Source of the DNA: Allobosea sp. CS1GBMeth4
Lineage (GTDB): Bacteria; Pseudomonadota; Alphaproteobacteria; Rhizobiales; Beijerinckiaceae
DNA: 64,000 nucleotides
Assembly (NCBI RefSeq): GCF_900185715.1
Contig: NZ_FYAS01000004.1
Span: 1 to 64,000 of the forward strand
Reading direction: 5' to 3'
The notes under the pieces were generated by a model. It worked only from the letters and a program-made list of their open reading frames with translations, was not told the DNA's origin and did no database searches. Below are positions 18,789 through 26,433 of this stretch, one piece after another. A program made the translations under genes and the position numbers. Within the stretch, counting starts at the first letter, position 1. Every line of letters starts with the position of its first letter.

Positions 18789-19232
18789 ATGGGTCTGTTC
18801 AGTTTCATCAAGGAAGCCGGGGCCAAAATCTTCGGGTCGAACTCGGCCAGCGCGGCGACCGCGGATCAGCTCCAGAAGGAACTCGCGGGCCATGGCCTGC
18901 CTTCGGACGTCAAGATCGATGTGTCGGGCGACAAGGTGAAGGTCTCCGGCAAGGCGATGACCACCGAGGAGGCCGAGAAGATCATCCTAGCGATCGGCAA
19001 CACCGCCGGCGTCGGCCAGGTCGAATCGGAGCTGATCGTCACCAAGGAGGCGCCGGCCGCGGTCTTCTACACGGTGAAGAAGGGCGACACGCTCTGGAAG
19101 ATCGCCGAGGAGCATTACGGCAAGGGCAAGGGCGCCAAATATACCGAGATCGTCAAGGCCAACACGCCGCCGGTGAAGAATCCCGACCTGATCCAGCCGG
19201 GCTGGGTCCTGCGCATTCCGCCGCTGGCCTGA
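18789..19232 (+). CDS. kbp: BON and LysM domain protein (Kbp/YgaU type)
   Basis: 147 residues from ATG 18789 (GGAG upstream). The start MGLFSFIKEAGAKIFG, a BON domain at about 22-90 and a LysM domain at about 96-145 (YTVKKGDTLWKIAEEHYG, ending QPGWVLRIPPLA) match the Escherichia coli potassium-binding protein Kbp in order and length (149 residues there). Kbp is a cytoplasmic K+ sensor; despite the LysM domain there is no signal peptide here either. Single gene; the promoter of the TRAP operon begins right after it. Confidence 0.93.
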   Translation: MGLFSFIKEAGAKIFGSNSASAATADQLQKELAGHGLPSDVKIDVSGDKVKVSGKAMTTEEAEKIILAIGNTAGVGQVESELIVTKEAPAAVFYTVKKGDTLWKIAEEHYGKGKGAKYTEIVKANTPPVKNPDLIQPGWVLRIPPLA

Positions 19233-19264: not shown

Positions 19265-19294
19265 TTGCCAGATAGTTGCAGTGGCAACTATTAT
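19265..19294 (+). promoter_or_regulatory. Promoter with embedded MarR-like operator for the TRAP operon
   Basis: TTGCCA (19265-19270) and TATTAT (19289-19294) are spaced by 18 bases, a good sigma-70-type pair. Inside the spacer and the start of the -10 box lies a perfect 8-4-8 palindrome, ATAGTTGC-AGTG-GCAACTAT (19272-19291), of the shape bound by MarR-family repressors. A bound dimer would block RNA polymerase. No MarR gene is within this window, so the repressor would act from elsewhere. Confidence 0.6.
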
Positions 19295-19295
19295 C

Positions 19296-19326
19296 GCCGG
19301 GAGGCTGTCGGCGACAGCCTCCCGGC
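19296..19326 (+). promoter_or_regulatory. Strong hairpin in the TRAP operon leader
   Basis: A perfect 14-bp stem, GCCGGGAGGCTGTC (19296-19309) and GACAGCCTCCCGGC (19313-19326), with a 3-base loop. It lies at the expected transcription start, 120 bases before the dctP start. It has no T-run, so it is more likely an mRNA-end stabiliser or leader control element than a terminator; it could instead be the end of the kbp transcript. Confidence 0.5.
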
Positions 19327-19446: not shown

Positions 19447-20499
19447 ATGACTTTTGACCGCCGCAGATTCCTGGCGCTCGCCGGCTCGGCCGTTGCCGCG
19501 CCCGCCGTGCTGCGCGCCACGCGCGCCGACGCCCAGGAGGTGACGCTGCGCATGCACCACTTCCTGCCGCCGGTGGCGAACGGGCATGCGAAGTTCCTGA
19601 AGCCCTGGGCCGACAAGGTCGGCGCCGAATCGAACGGCCGGATCAAGATCGACATCTTCCCGTCGATGCAGCTCGGCGGCACTCCGCCGCAGCTCTACGA
19701 CCAGGCGCGCGACGGCGTCGTCGACATCGTCTGGACCCTGCCGGGCAACACGCCCGGCCGCTTCACCGGCATCGAGGCGTTCGAGCTGCCCTTCGTGCCG
19801 AACAAGCGGGCGCTGGTGAACTCGCTGGCGCTGACCGACTATGCCGCCGAGCACCTCAGGGACGAATTCAAGGACATCCATCCGCTTTGCTTCTGGGCGC
19901 ATGATCACGGGCTGATCCATGCCAACAAGCCGGTGAGGACGATGGAGGACCTGAAGGGGCTGAAGCTGCGCTTCCCGACCCGCCTCGCCGGCGAGGCGCT
20001 GCGCGCGCTCGGTGCCAACGCCATCGGCATGCCGATCCCGCAAGTGCCGGAATCGCTGGCGCAGCGCGTGATCGACGGCTGCGTCGTGCCCTGGGAGGTG
20101 GTGCCCTCGATCAAGGTGCAGGAGCTGGTGAAGAACCACACCGAGATTCCGGGCTCGCCGACCTTCTACGTCGCGACCTTCGTCCTCGCCATGAACAAGG
20201 CGAAATACGAGGGGCTCGCGCCCGACCTCAAGGCGGTGATCGACAGGAACTCCGGCGCCGCCGCGGCCGCCATGGCGGGCAAGGTCTGGGACGAGCAGGC
20301 GGTGGTCGTCTCGGAGATGGTCAAGAAGCGCGGCAACACCATCATCACCATCGAGGAGGCCGAGGCGGCGCGCTGGCGCAAGACCACGGAGCCGGTGATC
20401 GAGGGCTGGCTCAAGACCGCCAAGGACAAGGGACTCGACGGCGAGAAGCTGCTCGCCGCCGCCCGCGCCGCGCTGACCAAGCATCAGAACGCGGCCTGA
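19447..20499 (+). CDS. dctP: TRAP transporter substrate-binding protein (DctP family)
   Basis: 350 residues. The N-terminus has a twin-arginine-type signal (RRRFLALAGSAVAAPAVL, cleavage near ADA). The mature part follows the DctP fold: VTLRMHHFLPP, PWADKVGAESNGRIKIDIFPSMQLGG, the LRFPTRLAGEAL segment with the Arg that binds the substrate carboxylate, and VPWEVVPS. It binds an organic acid in the periplasm for the DctQ/DctM importer encoded next. The DctQ gene starts four bases after its stop. The MarR-like operator upstream favours an aromatic or hydroxy acid, but that is inference. Confidence 0.93.
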   Translation: MTFDRRRFLALAGSAVAAPAVLRATRADAQEVTLRMHHFLPPVANGHAKFLKPWADKVGAESNGRIKIDIFPSMQLGGTPPQLYDQARDGVVDIVWTLPGNTPGRFTGIEAFELPFVPNKRALVNSLALTDYAAEHLRDEFKDIHPLCFWAHDHGLIHANKPVRTMEDLKGLKLRFPTRLAGEALRALGANAIGMPIPQVPESLAQRVIDGCVVPWEVVPSIKVQELVKNHTEIPGSPTFYVATFVLAMNKAKYEGLAPDLKAVIDRNSGAAAAAMAGKVWDEQAVVVSEMVKKRGNTIITIEEAEAARWRKTTEPVIEGWLKTAKDKGLDGEKLLAAARAALTKHQNAA

Positions 20500-20503
20500 G
20501 CGC

Positions 20504-21007
20504 ATGACCGACAGGGTGGGGGAAGCGCCGCCATCGCGCATCGACGCGGTGGCGGAGGCGGTCGCGCTCATCGGCGGGGTGCTGCTGGTCGCGCTCGCGA
20601 CCATGGTCGTGGTCAGCGTGACCTTGCGCAGCGACCTGGTCGGAGCCGCCGGCGTGCCCGGCGATTTCGAGCTTGTGCAGATGACCACCGCCGTCGCCGC
20701 CTTCTGCTTCCTGCCGCTGTGCCAGCTCAGGCGCGGCAACATCTTCGTCGACACCTTCACCCTGAAGCTGCCGCGCCGCTGGCGCGACGGCCTCGACGCG
20801 CTCTGGGACGTGATCTACGGGCTCGCAATGGCGCTGATCGCCTGGCGCCTCGGCGTCGGCGCGCGCTCGGCCTACGCCAGCGGCGAGAACACCATGGTGC
20901 TGCAGCTGCCGAGCTATCTGCCGATCGCGATCTGCGCGGTGCTCGCCGGTTTCGTCGCGCTCGCCGCCTTCGTCAGCGCCAGCCGTCTGGCGAGGCAGGC
21001 CCGATGA
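20504..21007 (+). CDS. dctQ: TRAP transporter small permease (DctQ)
   Basis: 167 residues with four membrane helices (ALIGGVLLVALATMVVVSVTL, TAVAAFCFLPLCQL, YGLAMALIAWRLG, ICAVLAGFVALAAFV) and the conserved RRGNIFVDTF after helix two. It forms the inner-membrane complex with DctM. The stop codon overlaps the start of dctM (ATGA at 21004-21007), typical for this operon. Confidence 0.93.
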   Translation: MTDRVGEAPPSRIDAVAEAVALIGGVLLVALATMVVVSVTLRSDLVGAAGVPGDFELVQMTTAVAAFCFLPLCQLRRGNIFVDTFTLKLPRRWRDGLDALWDVIYGLAMALIAWRLGVGARSAYASGENTMVLQLPSYLPIAICAVLAGFVALAAFVSASRLARQAR

Positions 21008-22323
21008 GCGGCTTTTCCCTGGCGATCACCGGTTTCGCCGCGATGCTGGCGCTGATGGCGCTGCGCCTGCCGATCGGGCTCGCCATGCTGGTCGTCGGCA
21101 GCGCCGGCTATATCCAGCTCAACGGGCTCGAGCCGTTCCTGAACTATATCCGCACGACCCCCTATCAAATCTTCGCCAACTACACGCTGTCGGTGATTCC
21201 GCTGTTCGTGCTGATGGGGGCCTTCGCCGAACGCTCGGGACTGGCGGGCGACCTGTTCAAGGCGGCCTCCGCCTTCGTCGGCCATCGCCGCGGCGGCCTC
21301 GGCATGGCGATGATCGGCGCCTGCACGGGCTTTGGCGCGATCTGCGGCTCGTCGGTGGCGACGACGGCGACCTTCGCCCGTGCGCCCCTGCCGCAATTGC
21401 GCTCCTATCGCTACGATCCCGGCTTCGCCTGCGGCGTCACCGCCGTCGGCGGCACGCTCGGCATCCTGATCCCGCCATCGGTGATCCTCGTGGTCTATGC
21501 GATCTCGACCGAGCAGAACATCGCCAGGCTGTTCCAGGCGGCGCTGGTTCCCGGGTTGATGGCGACGGCGTTCTACTGCCTCACCATCTGGATCATGACG
21601 CGCCTCGACGGCAGGCTCGGCCCGGCCCATGAGCGCACGCCCTGGCGCGAGCGCGGGCCGCTTCTGGTCGGCGTCGTTCCGGCGCTGACGGTGGCGGTGA
21701 TCGTCGTCGGCGGCATCTATGGCGGCGTCTTCACGCCGACCGAGGGCGCCTCGGTCGGCGCCTTCATCATGCTGGCGATCGGCCTGATCCGGCGCAGCCT
21801 CGGCCTCGACGGCATCAGGCAGGCGATCCTGCAGACCGCCGAGACCTCGGCGATGATTTTCGCCATCCTGCTCGGCGCCGAGGTGTTCAACGCCTTCCTG
21901 GCGCTGACGCAGGTCCCGACCGCGGCGGCGGAGATGATCGCCGCCTCCGGCTGGCAGCCCTATACGGTGCTCGTCGGCCTGCTCGTCTTCTACATCGTGC
22001 TCGGCGGCGTCATGGACGAGCTCGCCATGATCCTGCTCACCCTGCCGGTGTTCTTCCCGATCGTGACGGCGCTCGATTTCGGCATGCCGAGCGACGACAT
22101 CGCGATCTGGTTCGGCATCCTCGTGCTGATCGTGGTCGGCATCGGCATGACCTGCCCGCCGATCGGACTCAACGTCTTCGTCGTCGCCTCGCTGGCGCGC
22201 GACGTGCCGGTGACGCGGATCTATCGCGGCGTCCTGCCCTTCGTCGCCGCCGACATCATCCGGCTCGCCATCTGCGTGGCATTCCCGGCGCTCAGCCTCT
22301 ATCTGGTGAGGCTCCTGAACTGA
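21004..22323 (+). CDS. dctM: TRAP transporter large permease (DctM)
   Basis: 439 residues starting at ATG 21004 in the overlap with dctQ. About twelve helices with the family hallmarks: LPIGLAMLVVGSAGY at the N-terminus, IPLFVLMGAFAERSGLA, a GFGAICGSSVATTATFA loop, and IGMTCPPIGLNVFV near the end. It is the Na+-coupled elevator channel subunit. The rhodanese gene starts 20 bases downstream and is probably in the same transcript. Confidence 0.95.
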   Translation: MSGFSLAITGFAAMLALMALRLPIGLAMLVVGSAGYIQLNGLEPFLNYIRTTPYQIFANYTLSVIPLFVLMGAFAERSGLAGDLFKAASAFVGHRRGGLGMAMIGACTGFGAICGSSVATTATFARAPLPQLRSYRYDPGFACGVTAVGGTLGILIPPSVILVVYAISTEQNIARLFQAALVPGLMATAFYCLTIWIMTRLDGRLGPAHERTPWRERGPLLVGVVPALTVAVIVVGGIYGGVFTPTEGASVGAFIMLAIGLIRRSLGLDGIRQAILQTAETSAMIFAILLGAEVFNAFLALTQVPTAAAEMIAASGWQPYTVLVGLLVFYIVLGGVMDELAMILLTLPVFFPIVTALDFGMPSDDIAIWFGILVLIVVGIGMTCPPIGLNVFVVASLARDVPVTRIYRGVLPFVAADIIRLAICVAFPALSLYLVRLLN

Positions 22324-22343: not shown

Positions 22344-22658
22344 ATGATCGTTCACGACCTCGACATCGACGCCGTCAAGACAGGGCTGGCCGACGGCTCG
22401 ATCCTGATCGTCGACGTGCGCGAGCCGCACGAATACGCGGCCGGGCGCATTCCGGGCTCGGTGTCGCTGCCGCTCTCGCGGTTCGATCCCGCCGACCTGC
22501 CGAACGAGCCGGGCAAGCGCGTGGTGCTGTCCTGCGCCGCCGGCGTGCGCTCGCTGCGGGCGCTGGAGTTCGCGCAGGCCGCCGGGCTCGACATCGACAG
22601 CCACTATATCGGCGGCTTCAAGGACTGGGCCACGCGCGGCGAGCCGGTCGAGCGCTGA
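22344..22658 (+). CDS. Single-domain rhodanese-like protein
   Basis: 104 residues: rhodanese homology throughout, with the entry motif ILIVDVREPHEYAAGRIPGS and the active-site loop CAAGVRS containing the catalytic Cys and an Arg. Single-domain rhodaneses move sulfane sulfur (for example from thiosulfate or persulfides). No signal peptide, so cytosolic. It follows the TRAP genes by 20 bases, which suggests co-transcription; a sulfur-containing TRAP substrate is conceivable but unsupported beyond position. Confidence 0.88.
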   Translation: MIVHDLDIDAVKTGLADGSILIVDVREPHEYAAGRIPGSVSLPLSRFDPADLPNEPGKRVVLSCAAGVRSLRALEFAQAAGLDIDSHYIGGFKDWATRGEPVER

Positions 22659-22835: not shown

Positions 22836-23789
22836 ATGAAGGCTTCCTCCCTGCTGAGTCTCGCCCTCGCAGCCCTGCTCTGCACCGCATCGGCGGCGCC
22901 GTCGGCCTTCGCGCAGGCTGCCCCGCAGGCCGCGCCGAAGCGGCCGGCGCAGGATCCGGAGCTGCAGGCGGCGATCGCGAAGTCGAACGCCTATACCGCG
23001 CTAGCCAACCGGACGCTGAGGGCGATCGAATCCTGGGACCGCTACAAGAGCTGGGTCGACATGAAGAAGGGCCCGACCGGCAAGGAGCGCTACATCTCCT
23101 ACGGGCTCTACAGCCTGTATGACGTGACGAGCGAGATCGCCAAGGCCGAGGCGGCGACCGGCCAGGCGCCGGGGCAGCCGGAGCTCGACGGCGCGGTGAA
23201 GCGCTACATCGCCGCCTATCAGGAGCTCGCGCCGCTGATCACGCGGGCCGAGCGCTATTACGAGCGCAAGGATTATCGCGCCGACAACGCCGCCGAGGGC
23301 CGTGAGCTGCACGCCCGGATGGTGCCGACGGCCGAGGCCTTCCTGCGCGAGCGGGCAGCGTTCGACGGGCAGCTCGGCGCCTACAAGAGAGGCATCGACG
23401 CGCGCGAGCTCGCGGCGATCGAGGCGAGCGAGGGCCGCCAGGCGCGCTGGCAGCTGCGCAACATCATGATCAATGCGCGCGCCGTGATGGACCGGATGCC
23501 GAGCAACGAGAAGCCGATCGTCGATCTCGCCGCCTTCGATGCGGCGCTCGCCGGCTACGCTGCGGCGATCAGGGAGATGGACGCCTTCAAGGATAAGAAC
23601 CAGTCCGGCGTGCCGATCATCGATTCGCAGGCCAGCTCCTGGCTCGGCGCGCTGCGCGATTTCCGCGAGAAGCTCGGCAAGTCGAAGGGCGATGTCCGCA
23701 AGGGCGCGGCGAACGATGCCAACCGGATCGTCTCCAGCTATAATATGATGGTGTCGCTGTCCGACAGCGCCGCCCGCATGATCCGCTGA
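22836..23789 (+). CDS. Exported DUF3829 (YiiG-like) protein
   Basis: 317 residues with a Sec signal peptide (MKASSLLSLALAALLCTASA, cleavage after AFA). The mature part is mostly alpha-helical and charged and matches the YiiG-type DUF3829 pattern (KSNAYTALANRTLRAIESWDRYKSW early, SSYNMMVSLSDSAARMI at the end). No lipobox cysteine next to the cleavage point, so periplasmic rather than a lipoprotein. Function of the family is unknown. Single gene; the 177 bases upstream hold no strong signal. Confidence 0.82.
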   Translation: MKASSLLSLALAALLCTASAAPSAFAQAAPQAAPKRPAQDPELQAAIAKSNAYTALANRTLRAIESWDRYKSWVDMKKGPTGKERYISYGLYSLYDVTSEIAKAEAATGQAPGQPELDGAVKRYIAAYQELAPLITRAERYYERKDYRADNAAEGRELHARMVPTAEAFLRERAAFDGQLGAYKRGIDARELAAIEASEGRQARWQLRNIMINARAVMDRMPSNEKPIVDLAAFDAALAGYAAAIREMDAFKDKNQSGVPIIDSQASSWLGALRDFREKLGKSKGDVRKGAANDANRIVSSYNMMVSLSDSAARMIR

Positions 23790-23942: not shown

Positions 23943-24123
23943 GTGTGAAATTGGCCGGCATGTATCGACAAGGCCCCGGCCTGCCCTAGAATACCCTCCA
24001 TAGCGCCCGCTGGCCGGAAGCCTGCGCTCCATGCATTCCGGCCCCAGCATGCGGACCGGGGTGACGGCGCGGCGATCCTGCGCCAGTCTTTCTCATTCGA
24101 GTGATCCGAAGGAATTCTTGCCG

Positions 24124-26433
24124 ATGCGTCCGATGAAGTTCGGGATGGGCCAGCCGATGCGGCGGGTCGAGGATCAGCGCCTGACCACCGGCACTGGCCG
24201 CTACACCGACGACACCGCGGTCGAGGGCGCGCTGCACGCCTATGTCCTGCGCTCGCCGCATGCGCATGCCAGGTTCAAGATCATCGACAAGGAGACGGCG
24301 CGCAAGCGCAAGGGCGTCAAGCTGATCCTGACAGGCGAGGATGTCGCCGATCTCGGCGACATTCCCTGCAAGGGGCTGATCAAGGAGGTCTCCGGCGAGC
24401 CCGTGAAGCCGACGCATGTGCCGGTTCTGCCGGTCGACACCGTGCGCCATGTCGGCGAGGCGATCGCCTTCATCGTCGCCGAGACGCTCGACCAGGCGCG
24501 CGATGCCGCCGAGGCGATCGAGATCGAGTTCGAGACGCTGCCCTCGGTCACGGGCATCGCCGAGGCGCTCGACGCCAAGGCGCCGCAGGTCTGGCCCGAC
24601 CGGGCCGGCAACGTCGCCTTCGAGGCGGAGCAGGGCAATCGCGACAGGACGGAGAAGGCCTTCGCCAAGGCCGACCGCACGGTCTCGATCACCATCGTCA
24701 ACAATCGCCTCGCCTCCAACTACATGGAGACGCGTGCCTGCATCGCCGAATACGACAAGGCGGGCAAACGCTGGACGCTGACGCTCGGCAGCCAGGGCAG
24801 CCACGGCATGCGCGACATCCTCGCCAAGAACGTCCTCAAGGTCGATCCGGCCCGGATCCGGGTGATCACCCCCGATGTCGGCGGCGGCTTCGGGACCAAG
24901 ATCTTCATGTACCGCGAATACCCGCTGACCATGGTCGCGGCGGAGAGGCTGAAGCGGCCGGTACGCTGGGTCGCCGACCGGACCGAGCATTTCCTCGCCG
25001 ACACCCATGGCCGCGCCAACCTCACCACCGCGACGATGGCCCTCGACAAGCGTGGCAGGTTCATCGGCCTGAAAGTCGACCTCGCCGCCGATATGGGCGC
25101 CTATCTCTCGCAGTATGGGCCCTTCATTCCCTGGGTCGGCACGACGATGACGCCGGGCTGCTACAACATCCCGGCCGTGCATGTCCGCTTCCGCGGCGTC
25201 TTCACCAATACGACGCCGGTCGACGCCTATCGCGGCGCCGGGCGGCCCGAGGCGGCCTATCTGATCGAGCGCCTGGTCGACGCGATCGCGCGCGAGACCG
25301 GCAGGACGCCGGACGCGGTGCGCGCGCAGAATTTCGTCAAGCCGAGCGAGATGCCGCACAAGACGCAGACCGGCCCGGTCTACGATTCCGGCGAGTTCGA
25401 GGGCCATATGCGCCGCGCCATGGAGGTCGCGGACTGGAAGGGCTTCAAGAGCCGTCTCAGGGCCTCGCAGAAGGCCGGCAAGATCCGCGGCATCGGCCTC
25501 GCCTGCTATATCGAGGCCTGCGGCGGCGGCGGGCCGGAGAGCTCGACCGTGATCCTCGAGAAGGACGGCACCGTCACCGTGCTGATCGGCACCCAGTCGA
25601 ACGGGCAGGGGCACGAGACCGCCTATTCGCAGCTGGTCGCGCAGCATCTCGACATCCCGCTCGACCGCATCAGGGTGATCCAGGGCGATACCGACCGGAT
25701 CGCCACCGGCTCCGGCACCGGCGGTTCGCGCTCGATCCCCGTCGGCGGCGCGGCGCTCAACGCGGCGACCGGCATCCTCGCCGACAATCTGAAGAGCCTC
25801 GCCTCGGACGCGCTCGAAGCCAGCCCCGGCGACCTCGAGATCGTCGACGGGGCCGTGCGCATCGTCGGCACCGACAAGAAGCTCGATCTCAAGGCGATCG
25901 CCAACCTGCCCGGCGCGAAGGCGGAGCAGCTCAGCGTCCATCAGAGCTGGACGCCGCCGGAGGCGACCTATCCGAACGGCACCCATGTGGTCGAGCTGGA
26001 GATCGATCCGGCGACGGGCGGCACCGAGATCCAGAACTATGTGGTGGTCGACGATTTCGGCGTGACGCTGAACCCGATCATGCTGCAGGGCCAGGTCCAT
26101 GGCGGCGCGGCGCAGGGCATCGGCCAGGCGCTGATGGAGGAGATCCGCTTCGACTCGTCCGGCCAGATGCTGACCGCGACCTTCATGGACTATGCCCTGC
26201 CGCGCGCGATCGACATCCCGAGCTTCCATTTCGAGACGCGCAACGTGCCCTGCGTCACCAACGCCATCGGCGTGAAGGGCGCGGGCGAGGCCGGCGCGAT
26301 CGGCGCCTGCCCGGCCGTCATGAACGCTATGGTTGACGCGCTCGACCGCGCCGCCGGCATCAAGGCGATCGACATGCCCGCGACGCCGGCCAAGGTGTTC
26401 GCGACCTTGCGGGAAGCGGGATATCGGCCCTGA
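24124..26433 (+). CDS. CoxL-like molybdopterin-binding subunit (xanthine dehydrogenase family)
   Basis: 769 residues from ATG 24124 (AAGGA upstream). It has the aldehyde oxidase/xanthine dehydrogenase large-subunit order: an N-terminal a/b-hammerhead domain with the MGQPMRRVEDQRLTTGTGRYTDD start, then DVGGGFGTK, AYRGAGRPEAAY, GQGHETAYSQ and VKGAGEAGAIG with the catalytic Glu. The AYRGAGR motif is that of the form II (CoxL-like, not true CO dehydrogenase) group; true CoxL has AYxCSFR. The usual FAD (CoxM) and 2Fe-2S (CoxS) subunits are not encoded next to it. Two cytochromes c follow instead. It probably oxidises an aldehyde or N-heterocycle; substrate unknown. Confidence 0.92.
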   Translation: MRPMKFGMGQPMRRVEDQRLTTGTGRYTDDTAVEGALHAYVLRSPHAHARFKIIDKETARKRKGVKLILTGEDVADLGDIPCKGLIKEVSGEPVKPTHVPVLPVDTVRHVGEAIAFIVAETLDQARDAAEAIEIEFETLPSVTGIAEALDAKAPQVWPDRAGNVAFEAEQGNRDRTEKAFAKADRTVSITIVNNRLASNYMETRACIAEYDKAGKRWTLTLGSQGSHGMRDILAKNVLKVDPARIRVITPDVGGGFGTKIFMYREYPLTMVAAERLKRPVRWVADRTEHFLADTHGRANLTTATMALDKRGRFIGLKVDLAADMGAYLSQYGPFIPWVGTTMTPGCYNIPAVHVRFRGVFTNTTPVDAYRGAGRPEAAYLIERLVDAIARETGRTPDAVRAQNFVKPSEMPHKTQTGPVYDSGEFEGHMRRAMEVADWKGFKSRLRASQKAGKIRGIGLACYIEACGGGGPESSTVILEKDGTVTVLIGTQSNGQGHETAYSQLVAQHLDIPLDRIRVIQGDTDRIATGSGTGGSRSIPVGGAALNAATGILADNLKSLASDALEASPGDLEIVDGAVRIVGTDKKLDLKAIANLPGAKAEQLSVHQSWTPPEATYPNGTHVVELEIDPATGGTEIQNYVVVDDFGVTLNPIMLQGQVHGGAAQGIGQALMEEIRFDSSGQMLTATFMDYALPRAIDIPSFHFETRNVPCVTNAIGVKGAGEAGAIGACPAVMNAMVDALDRAAGIKAIDMPATPAKVFATLREAGYRP

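Follow-up and report, generated by a model that had tools for sequence, protein, structure and literature searches.

A predicted MarR-family operator in the promoter of a dctPQM-rhodanese operon of Bosea relatives, with candidate regulators encoded elsewhere in the genome

The window analysed here is the whole 64,000-nucleotide stretch at the start of contig NZ_FYAS01000004.1 of Allobosea sp. CS1GBMeth4. On its forward strand, a gene for a ygaU-like protein with LysM and BON domains (18789-19232; PRK11198, 167.5 bits, above cut-off) is followed by dctP, encoding a TRAP solute-binding protein that is TarP-like by its nearest solved chains (19447-20499; PF03480), dctQ for the small permease (20504-21007; PF04290), dctM for the large permease (21004-22323, with a start chosen in this analysis; PF06808, TIGR00786) and a gene for a rhodanese-domain protein (22344-22658; PF00581), the last of the predicted operon. 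PF03480, PF04290 and PF06808 all score above their cut-offs, so that the three components of a DctPQM TRAP transporter are found together, and a rhodanese relative also lies 3′ of dctP at many loci of relatives. Among the best 80 of 226 DctP relatives, the closest named ones (83-95% identity) carry mostly Bosea titles, and some close ones are titled only Rhizobiales, Beijerinckiaceae or, for one MAG, Methylobacterium. Downstream of the TRAP operon the window holds a DUF3829 gene (22836-23789) and a gene for a large molybdopterin-dependent oxidoreductase with MoCoBD domains (24031-26433), which reaches no NCBIfam cut-off.

The operon is preceded by a promoter, TTGCCA-N18-TATTAT (19265-19294), carrying a perfect palindrome in its spacer, just as an earlier note on this DNA had described. 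The promoter scan places the −35 element TTGCCA at 19265-19270 and the −10 element TATTAT at 19289-19294, both on the forward strand, and this pair is the sole match within 2 kb (10 of 12 letters; shuffles give 0.1). The palindrome ATAGTTGCAGTGGCAACTAT occupies positions 19272-19291 with an 8-4-8 arrangement and zero mismatches, and its 3′ end is overlapped by the −10; it can be written ATAGTTGC-AGTG-GCAACTAT and is a predicted MarR-family site according to palindrome scans, footprinting and motif scores. When up to three mismatches are allowed, 0.05 palindromes of this type are expected per 64 kb, and the window scan found one, free of mismatches. The 5.07 Mb genome contains five sites at this threshold, and the reversed control pattern yields one; apart from the site in the window, the remaining four have exactly three mismatches each, and no other copy has fewer. 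The full palindrome therefore does not have the spread over many unrelated places that the earlier note had named as fatal to its operator reading. This does not extend to the bare core GTTGC-N4-GCAAC, which is common: three copies in this genome against three for the reversed control, and 57 against 44 over 12 genomes, which is hardly an enrichment. These counts weigh against the reading we prefer, as do two further exact cores of the same genome on contig C22. Since the bare core is not rare genome-wide, the case for an operator rests on position and conservation. No copies of the intergenic region were found on plasmids.

Conservation was followed among 61 genomes of the genus, in which 29 dctP orthologues were found at a threshold of at least 79% identity. 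The core GTTRC-N4-GMAAC (at most one mismatch) is present in 23 of these 29 dctP promoters, at the same promoter place, and is missing from those of G017, G075, G061, G070, G078 and G082. A TTG[AC][CG] element, the counterpart of the −35, stands 10 or 12 nt 5′ of the core in 21 of the 23 loci. Spacer and half-site letters differ from one locus to another and the position stays constant, a behaviour as would be expected for a protein site. For a longer pattern, WTRGTTRC-N4-GCAACKAT, sought with up to one mismatch, the 61 genomes contain 51 matches on the forward strand versus 4 for the reversed control. Outside Bosea, 56 relatives remained from the best 80 of 226 after removal of 24 (Bosea titles and others with at least 79% identity). 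The exact core occurs in five of these 56 dctP upstream regions (L305, L313, L318, L321, L357), against 0 in 1026 control windows taken from these loci, the shuffle mean being 0.064. The letters of L305 and L313 are identical, and the two may be closely related, so the five cores amount to about four lineages. In Chelatococcus albus (L304), a one-mismatch core precedes dctP.

The inverted repeat lies inside a promoter and recurs in the orthologous promoters more often than chance would allow; very probably it is an operator bound by a protein. The repressible promoter with a MarR operator proposed in the earlier note is backed by the footprinting, by related sites at the starts of MarR genes and by the pobA promoters described below. 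It is highly improbable that the palindrome works instead at the RNA level, as a hairpin or terminator: it does fold as RNA, and its G011 version AAAAGTTGCGGAAGCAACTTTTTTT resembles a bidirectional terminator, but in eight of the nine sites of the window's clade the arms pair incompletely (GTTGC or GTTAC with GAAAC) while the place in the promoter is unchanged, and the related sites at pobA and MarR starts also speak for a protein.

A second palindromic element, a perfect stem-loop identified by inverted-repeat search and folding, begins 2 nt past the −10 (19296-19326, forward strand). Its arms are GCCGGGAGGCTGTCG (19296-19310) and CGACAGCCTCCCGGC (19312-19326). The perfect 14-bp stem reported earlier is indeed perfect and has 14 bp with a 3-nt loop as RNA, whereas the DNA arms measure 15 nt with 1 nt between them. 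The window has 45 inverted repeats, and among the 25 longest no other pair is 100% complementary; the 60 nt 3′ of the operator fold with a z of −4.0. By rule of thumb, the usual +1 after this −10 would be 19300-19302, that is inside the 5′ arm, 4-6 nt after the start of the stem. The stem does not, then, begin at the expected transcript start, as had been supposed, and it is poorly placed for a stabilising hairpin at the 5′ end of the transcript; moreover, a structure with z of −3 or below within 60 nt 3′ of the operator occurs in just 7 of the 23 loci (that of the window, G000, and those of G036, G014, G013, G025, G011 and G004). As to an intrinsic terminator, the stem is there and the T-run behind it is not, the scan returning 0 terminators; the window has no Rfam match.

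In our estimate there is an even chance that the stem-loop is a 3′-end hairpin of ygaU (terminator-like or stabilising), with the promoter lying between gene and hairpin, and no leader of the TRAP mRNA. A survey of 30 ygaU loci, less L076, L078 and L093 (misplaced loci of TRAP genomes near contig ends), included 14 genomes that lack the TRAP operon and are apparently unaffected by the misplacement; in 9 of them a hairpin stands 14-19 nt past the ygaU stop, in 7 with TTTT behind it. Outside the window's clade there are 14 operator loci, and by eye 10 of them show a hairpin and a run of T ahead of the TRAP promoter; G017 and G075, also by eye, retain the hairpin without any operator. The outer pairs of the stem lie 5′ of the expected +1, and one compensatory change from T-A to C-G distinguishes the window from L007/L008. 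On the other side, the stem of the window has no T-run, and a strong structure still follows the operator in G004, where the ygaU end is about 1.3 kb upstream, and in G025, which has its own terminator; these two cases argue against a pure ygaU terminator. Alternatively, the stem-loop could genuinely belong to the 5′ leader of the TRAP mRNA and act in stability or attenuation, in keeping with the fold z of the window and of the six other loci; this we find rather unlikely, because 16 of the 23 loci have no such structure, the stem starts 5′ of the expected +1 and Rfam is silent on the window. The hairpins of G017 and G075, together with the place of the +1, go against a pure leader. We lean slightly towards a 3′-end element of ygaU.

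Which protein would bind the operator is not indicated by its immediate neighbours. A search of the 64 kb with a MarR profile built for this analysis was empty at E 1e-3, in agreement with the earlier note that no MarR gene is adjacent. A MarR gene beside the TRAP operon was likewise sought in the TRAP neighbourhoods L137, L138, L139 and L141, and one beside pobA in the seven neighbourhoods L193-L199, none being found at E 1e-3. At the TRAP loci L319 and L344 a MarR gene does lie about 1.9 kb past the dctP end, yet no exact core precedes dctP.

A first candidate came from the genome scan that had been suggested for the palindrome. It delivered one site at a MarR gene, and that site, like all the other matches, has three mismatches: TTAGTTACATGTGCAACTAA lies across the start of a MarR gene (G000:C19:31911; PF12802/PF01047) divergent from a neighbour that TIGR01015 identifies as hmgA. 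The genome has 51 PF12802 (MarR_2) matches; among the 22 distinct MarR genes examined (L384 and L387 without profile match), a 0-mismatch site close to the gene's start was seen for the hmgA-linked one alone. Across the genus, where 30 of 61 loci of hmgA-type MarR genes were read, a matching site precedes the gene in 18; in the other 12 there is none in the 110 nt 5′ of the gene, which counts against the preferred reading. A second hmgA-MarR pair surfaced in the genus-wide pattern searches, as did pobA. The pairing with the TRAP operon is seen again in Chelatococcus albus, where dctP is flanked by ygaU and rhodanese genes, the hmgA-MarR site reads TTAGTTACATATGAAACTAA and the TRAP site ATGGTTTCAAATGAAACTAT, and no MarR2-like match (see below) was found beyond the hmgA-type one. 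Identity with HpaR (TIGR02337) was rejected for the hmgA-linked MarR (39.5 bits) and for MarR2 (20.6 bits), the cut-off being 121.2. Another MarR paralogue of the genome, L130 (G000:C31:126441 region), has the same layout with a different half-site, its own palindrome AGTTCCATATGGAACT near its start, and was discarded as regulator of the TRAP operon.

The second candidate emerges from pobA (TIGR02360), whose upstream regions were read in 47 of the 59 genomes having the gene, 30 of them first and 17 later. The core lies in the pobA promoter of 22 of the 47 genomes (21 exact, one with one mismatch), all within the first 30; the 17 regions read later, including that of the window's genome, have none. 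A MarR paralogue that we call MarR2 is found in 21 of the 61 genomes when at least 70% identity is required; all 21 have the pobA operator, and from G017 and G075 MarR2 is missing along with the operators of both pobA and the TRAP operon. From this co-occurrence, MarR2 is a candidate regulator of pobA and of the TRAP operon in the relatives. Several observations weigh against it: G061, G070, G078 and G082 possess MarR2 and lack the TRAP operator, and in G083, a draft genome, both operators are present (the TRAP one with one mismatch) and MarR2 was not found. Placed on a tree of pobA from 32 genomes, the distribution of MarR2 and of the pobA operator comes down to only one or two changes, and a co-occurrence test by independent pairs gives no significance. 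There is no conserved site at the gene of MarR2 itself: one of the 21 loci has a one-mismatch core within the 250 nt 5′ of the gene, whose start is placed approximately at the two loci cut by contig ends (L233, L234).

In the window's clade, represented here by nine genomes that all have the TRAP operator, MarR2 was not found, and its best match in the window's own genome is the hmgA-type MarR (2.8e-16). The pobA gene of this genome has no site within 300 nt and is divergent from an AraC-family gene (PF12833, PF02311), no relative of which was found in the seven pobA neighbourhoods read in MarR2 genomes. With a siteless pobA next to an AraC-family gene, there seems to be no coupling of pobA to the TRAP operon in this genome, which also counts against the reading we prefer. 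Outside Bosea, the host genomes of L305 and L313 contain a 47% relative of MarR2 as well as GTTGC-GCAAC sites.

We propose that a dimeric MarR-family repressor, acting in trans from a gene elsewhere in the genome, would use the 20-bp palindrome as its operator and, bound between the −35 and the −10, would exclude RNA polymerase. An aromatic ligand or its catabolite would free the DNA of the repressor and allow transcription of dctPQM and the rhodanese gene. In relatives with a pobA operator, the unlinked MarR2 would serve pobA and the TRAP operon jointly. The MarR divergent from hmgA would be the best candidate for the window's clade, in which no MarR2 was found. Taken as a whole, this picture of an aromatic-acid TRAP operon repressed in trans by a MarR protein, with the hmgA-linked MarR as candidate in the window's clade, seems to us the probable one. 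Sites, their positions and conservation, gene families and gene clusters are observed; binding, repression, ligand, substrate and the choice of MarR are inferred.

The choice of MarR can be weighed by scoring the TRAP sites with motifs derived from the hmgA-MarR sites and from the pobA sites (the site of G013 having one mismatch). Outside the window's clade, each of the 14 TRAP sites scores better with the pobA motif. Inside the clade, five of the nine favour the hmgA-MarR motif by at least 5 bits and three are about neutral; the window's own site favours the pobA motif by 2.5 bits (22.0 versus 19.5), though MarR2 was not found in its genome. This last score feeds the main competing explanation, to which we give a substantial chance, somewhat short of even: the operator is the same, but another MarR or another dimeric family binds it in the window's clade, the hmgA-MarR site being a look-alike. 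The 22 genes examined among the 51 MarR_2 matches leave room for such a protein, and G028 has the TRAP operator and MarR2 without a close hmgA-type MarR (best match 6.6e-17), so that at least in G028 another MarR must act. The hmgA-linked MarR is favoured over an outsider by its 0-mismatch site, unique among the genes examined, by the clearly better scores of its motif at five clade sites and by the recurrence of the pairing in Chelatococcus.

Together, the motif scores within the clade, the failure to find MarR2 there and the Chelatococcus pairing suggest a hand-over from one repressor to a paralogous one, but do not prove it. The TRAP operon would have shared its MarR with pobA in part of the genus and would now stand under the hmgA-linked MarR in the window's clade and in Chelatococcus. 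The half-sites would have moved from GTTGC...GCAAC towards GTTAC...GAAAC, pobA having an AraC-type neighbour instead. We offer this scenario, shift of half-sites included, as a tentative one that may well prove wrong.

As for the transported compound, a 4-hydroxybenzoate- or protocatechuate-type aromatic acid is most likely, with hydroxycinnamate as the alternative; induction of the operon by aromatic acids is plausible from the link with pobA and from the relatives of the binding protein. At L264 (G071:C87, 963-7850), an AraC-family gene, dctPQM, pobA, pcaH (TIGR02422) and pcaG (TIGR02423) are clustered, in what looks like a set for 4-hydroxybenzoate uptake and breakdown; the G071 dctP is 64% identical to that of the window. 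G079 has matches to dctQ and to part of dctM immediately before pobA. The DctP structure predicted for the window (mean pLDDT 85.4) has its best matches in 5IM2, 5I7I, 5IZZ and TarP_Sse/TarP_Csal. The TRAP binding proteins 5I7I/5IZZ/5I5P/5IGA (aromatic acids) and 5IM2, as well as TarP_Sse (7NR2/7NRA) and TarP_Csal (7NRR/7NSW/7NTD/7NTE), share 37-46% identity with it at VIA Z values of 41.6-45.1. Titles of 10 of the top 11 matches name aromatic acids or TarP; 5IM2, which comes first, shows no ligand there, and the nearest solved relatives are otherwise binders of aromatic acids. For the TarP structures, the titles give hydroxycinnamates, cinnamate and 4-hydroxyphenylacetate as ligands and not 4-hydroxybenzoate, which counts against the preferred reading; the proposal of 4-hydroxybenzoate consequently rests on gene neighbourhood and on the pobA operator. 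According to the account in PMC13253662, two TRAP loci near protocatechuate genes of Vibrio natriegens could be deleted with uptake unaffected, so neighbourhood can mislead about the substrate.

These properties recall systems already described. In Rhodopseudomonas palustris, the MarR-type repressor CouR controls TarPQM (PMC3610893), so that there, as in our proposal, a MarR repressor governs an aromatic-acid DctPQM TRAP transporter along with catabolic genes. CouR, however, is described there as answering to p-coumaroyl-CoA and sitting near its targets, whereas the operon of the window has no adjacent regulator, a GTTRC-N4-GMAAC site, and pobA or hmgA as partner genes. The CouR box of Rhodococcus jostii is also an inverted repeat for a MarR repressor that overlaps a promoter element, but as given in PMC4737184 it reads ATTGA-N5-TCAAT and lies over the −35, so both sequence and place differ. 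HmgS, predicted as MarR-family regulator of hmgAB in Alteromonadales (PMC5343134), is likewise a MarR protein assigned to the homogentisate pathway; it is a gammaproteobacterial prediction, likened to the Bosea protein by description, and the text available names no TRAP target. In Roseovarius nubinhibens, a TRAP system beside the pca cluster is induced by 4-hydroxybenzoate (PMC12442348) and thus resembles our proposal in its inducer and in adjoining beta-ketoadipate genes; its operon layout differs, and the word MarR is absent from the main text of that report. Titles and abstract openings of the literature on MarR/pobA/TRAP, TarP, MarR and homogentisate, and Bosea and 4-hydroxybenzoate hold no account of a system like this one. 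Within these sources, the kind of system is already known from CouR-TarPQM, and the operon of the window would belong to it with an unlinked regulator and a possible exchange of regulators.

Operator-like sites were also met at other genes. In two relatives (L097, L105; about 1501-1520), a GTTTC or GTTAC-N4-GCAAC site stands just 5′ of an outer-membrane beta-barrel gene, assigned by PF13505 for L097 and by eye for L105. At L096 and L125 (about 1501-1520), in genomes without the TRAP operon, a TTGGTTGCAAGGGGAACGAT-type site is found at a 2-oxoisovalerate dehydrogenase E1 alpha gene; such letters recur in many other genomes. One more site lies near another DctQM-type gene, by eye, at L120 / L369 (G017:C12:121812), in a genome without dctP and pobA operators.

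Many TRAP transporters are without assigned substrate, and how lignin-derived aromatic acids are taken up matters in practice. What was an anonymous TRAP operon can now be tested as an uptake system for aromatic acids, with a predicted operator, candidate regulators and a partner gene to start from. If the hand-over is true, a target would have been traded between two MarR paralogues that share one operator grammar. The related species in which the operator has been kept, altered or lost offer material for studying target exchange among MarR paralogues.
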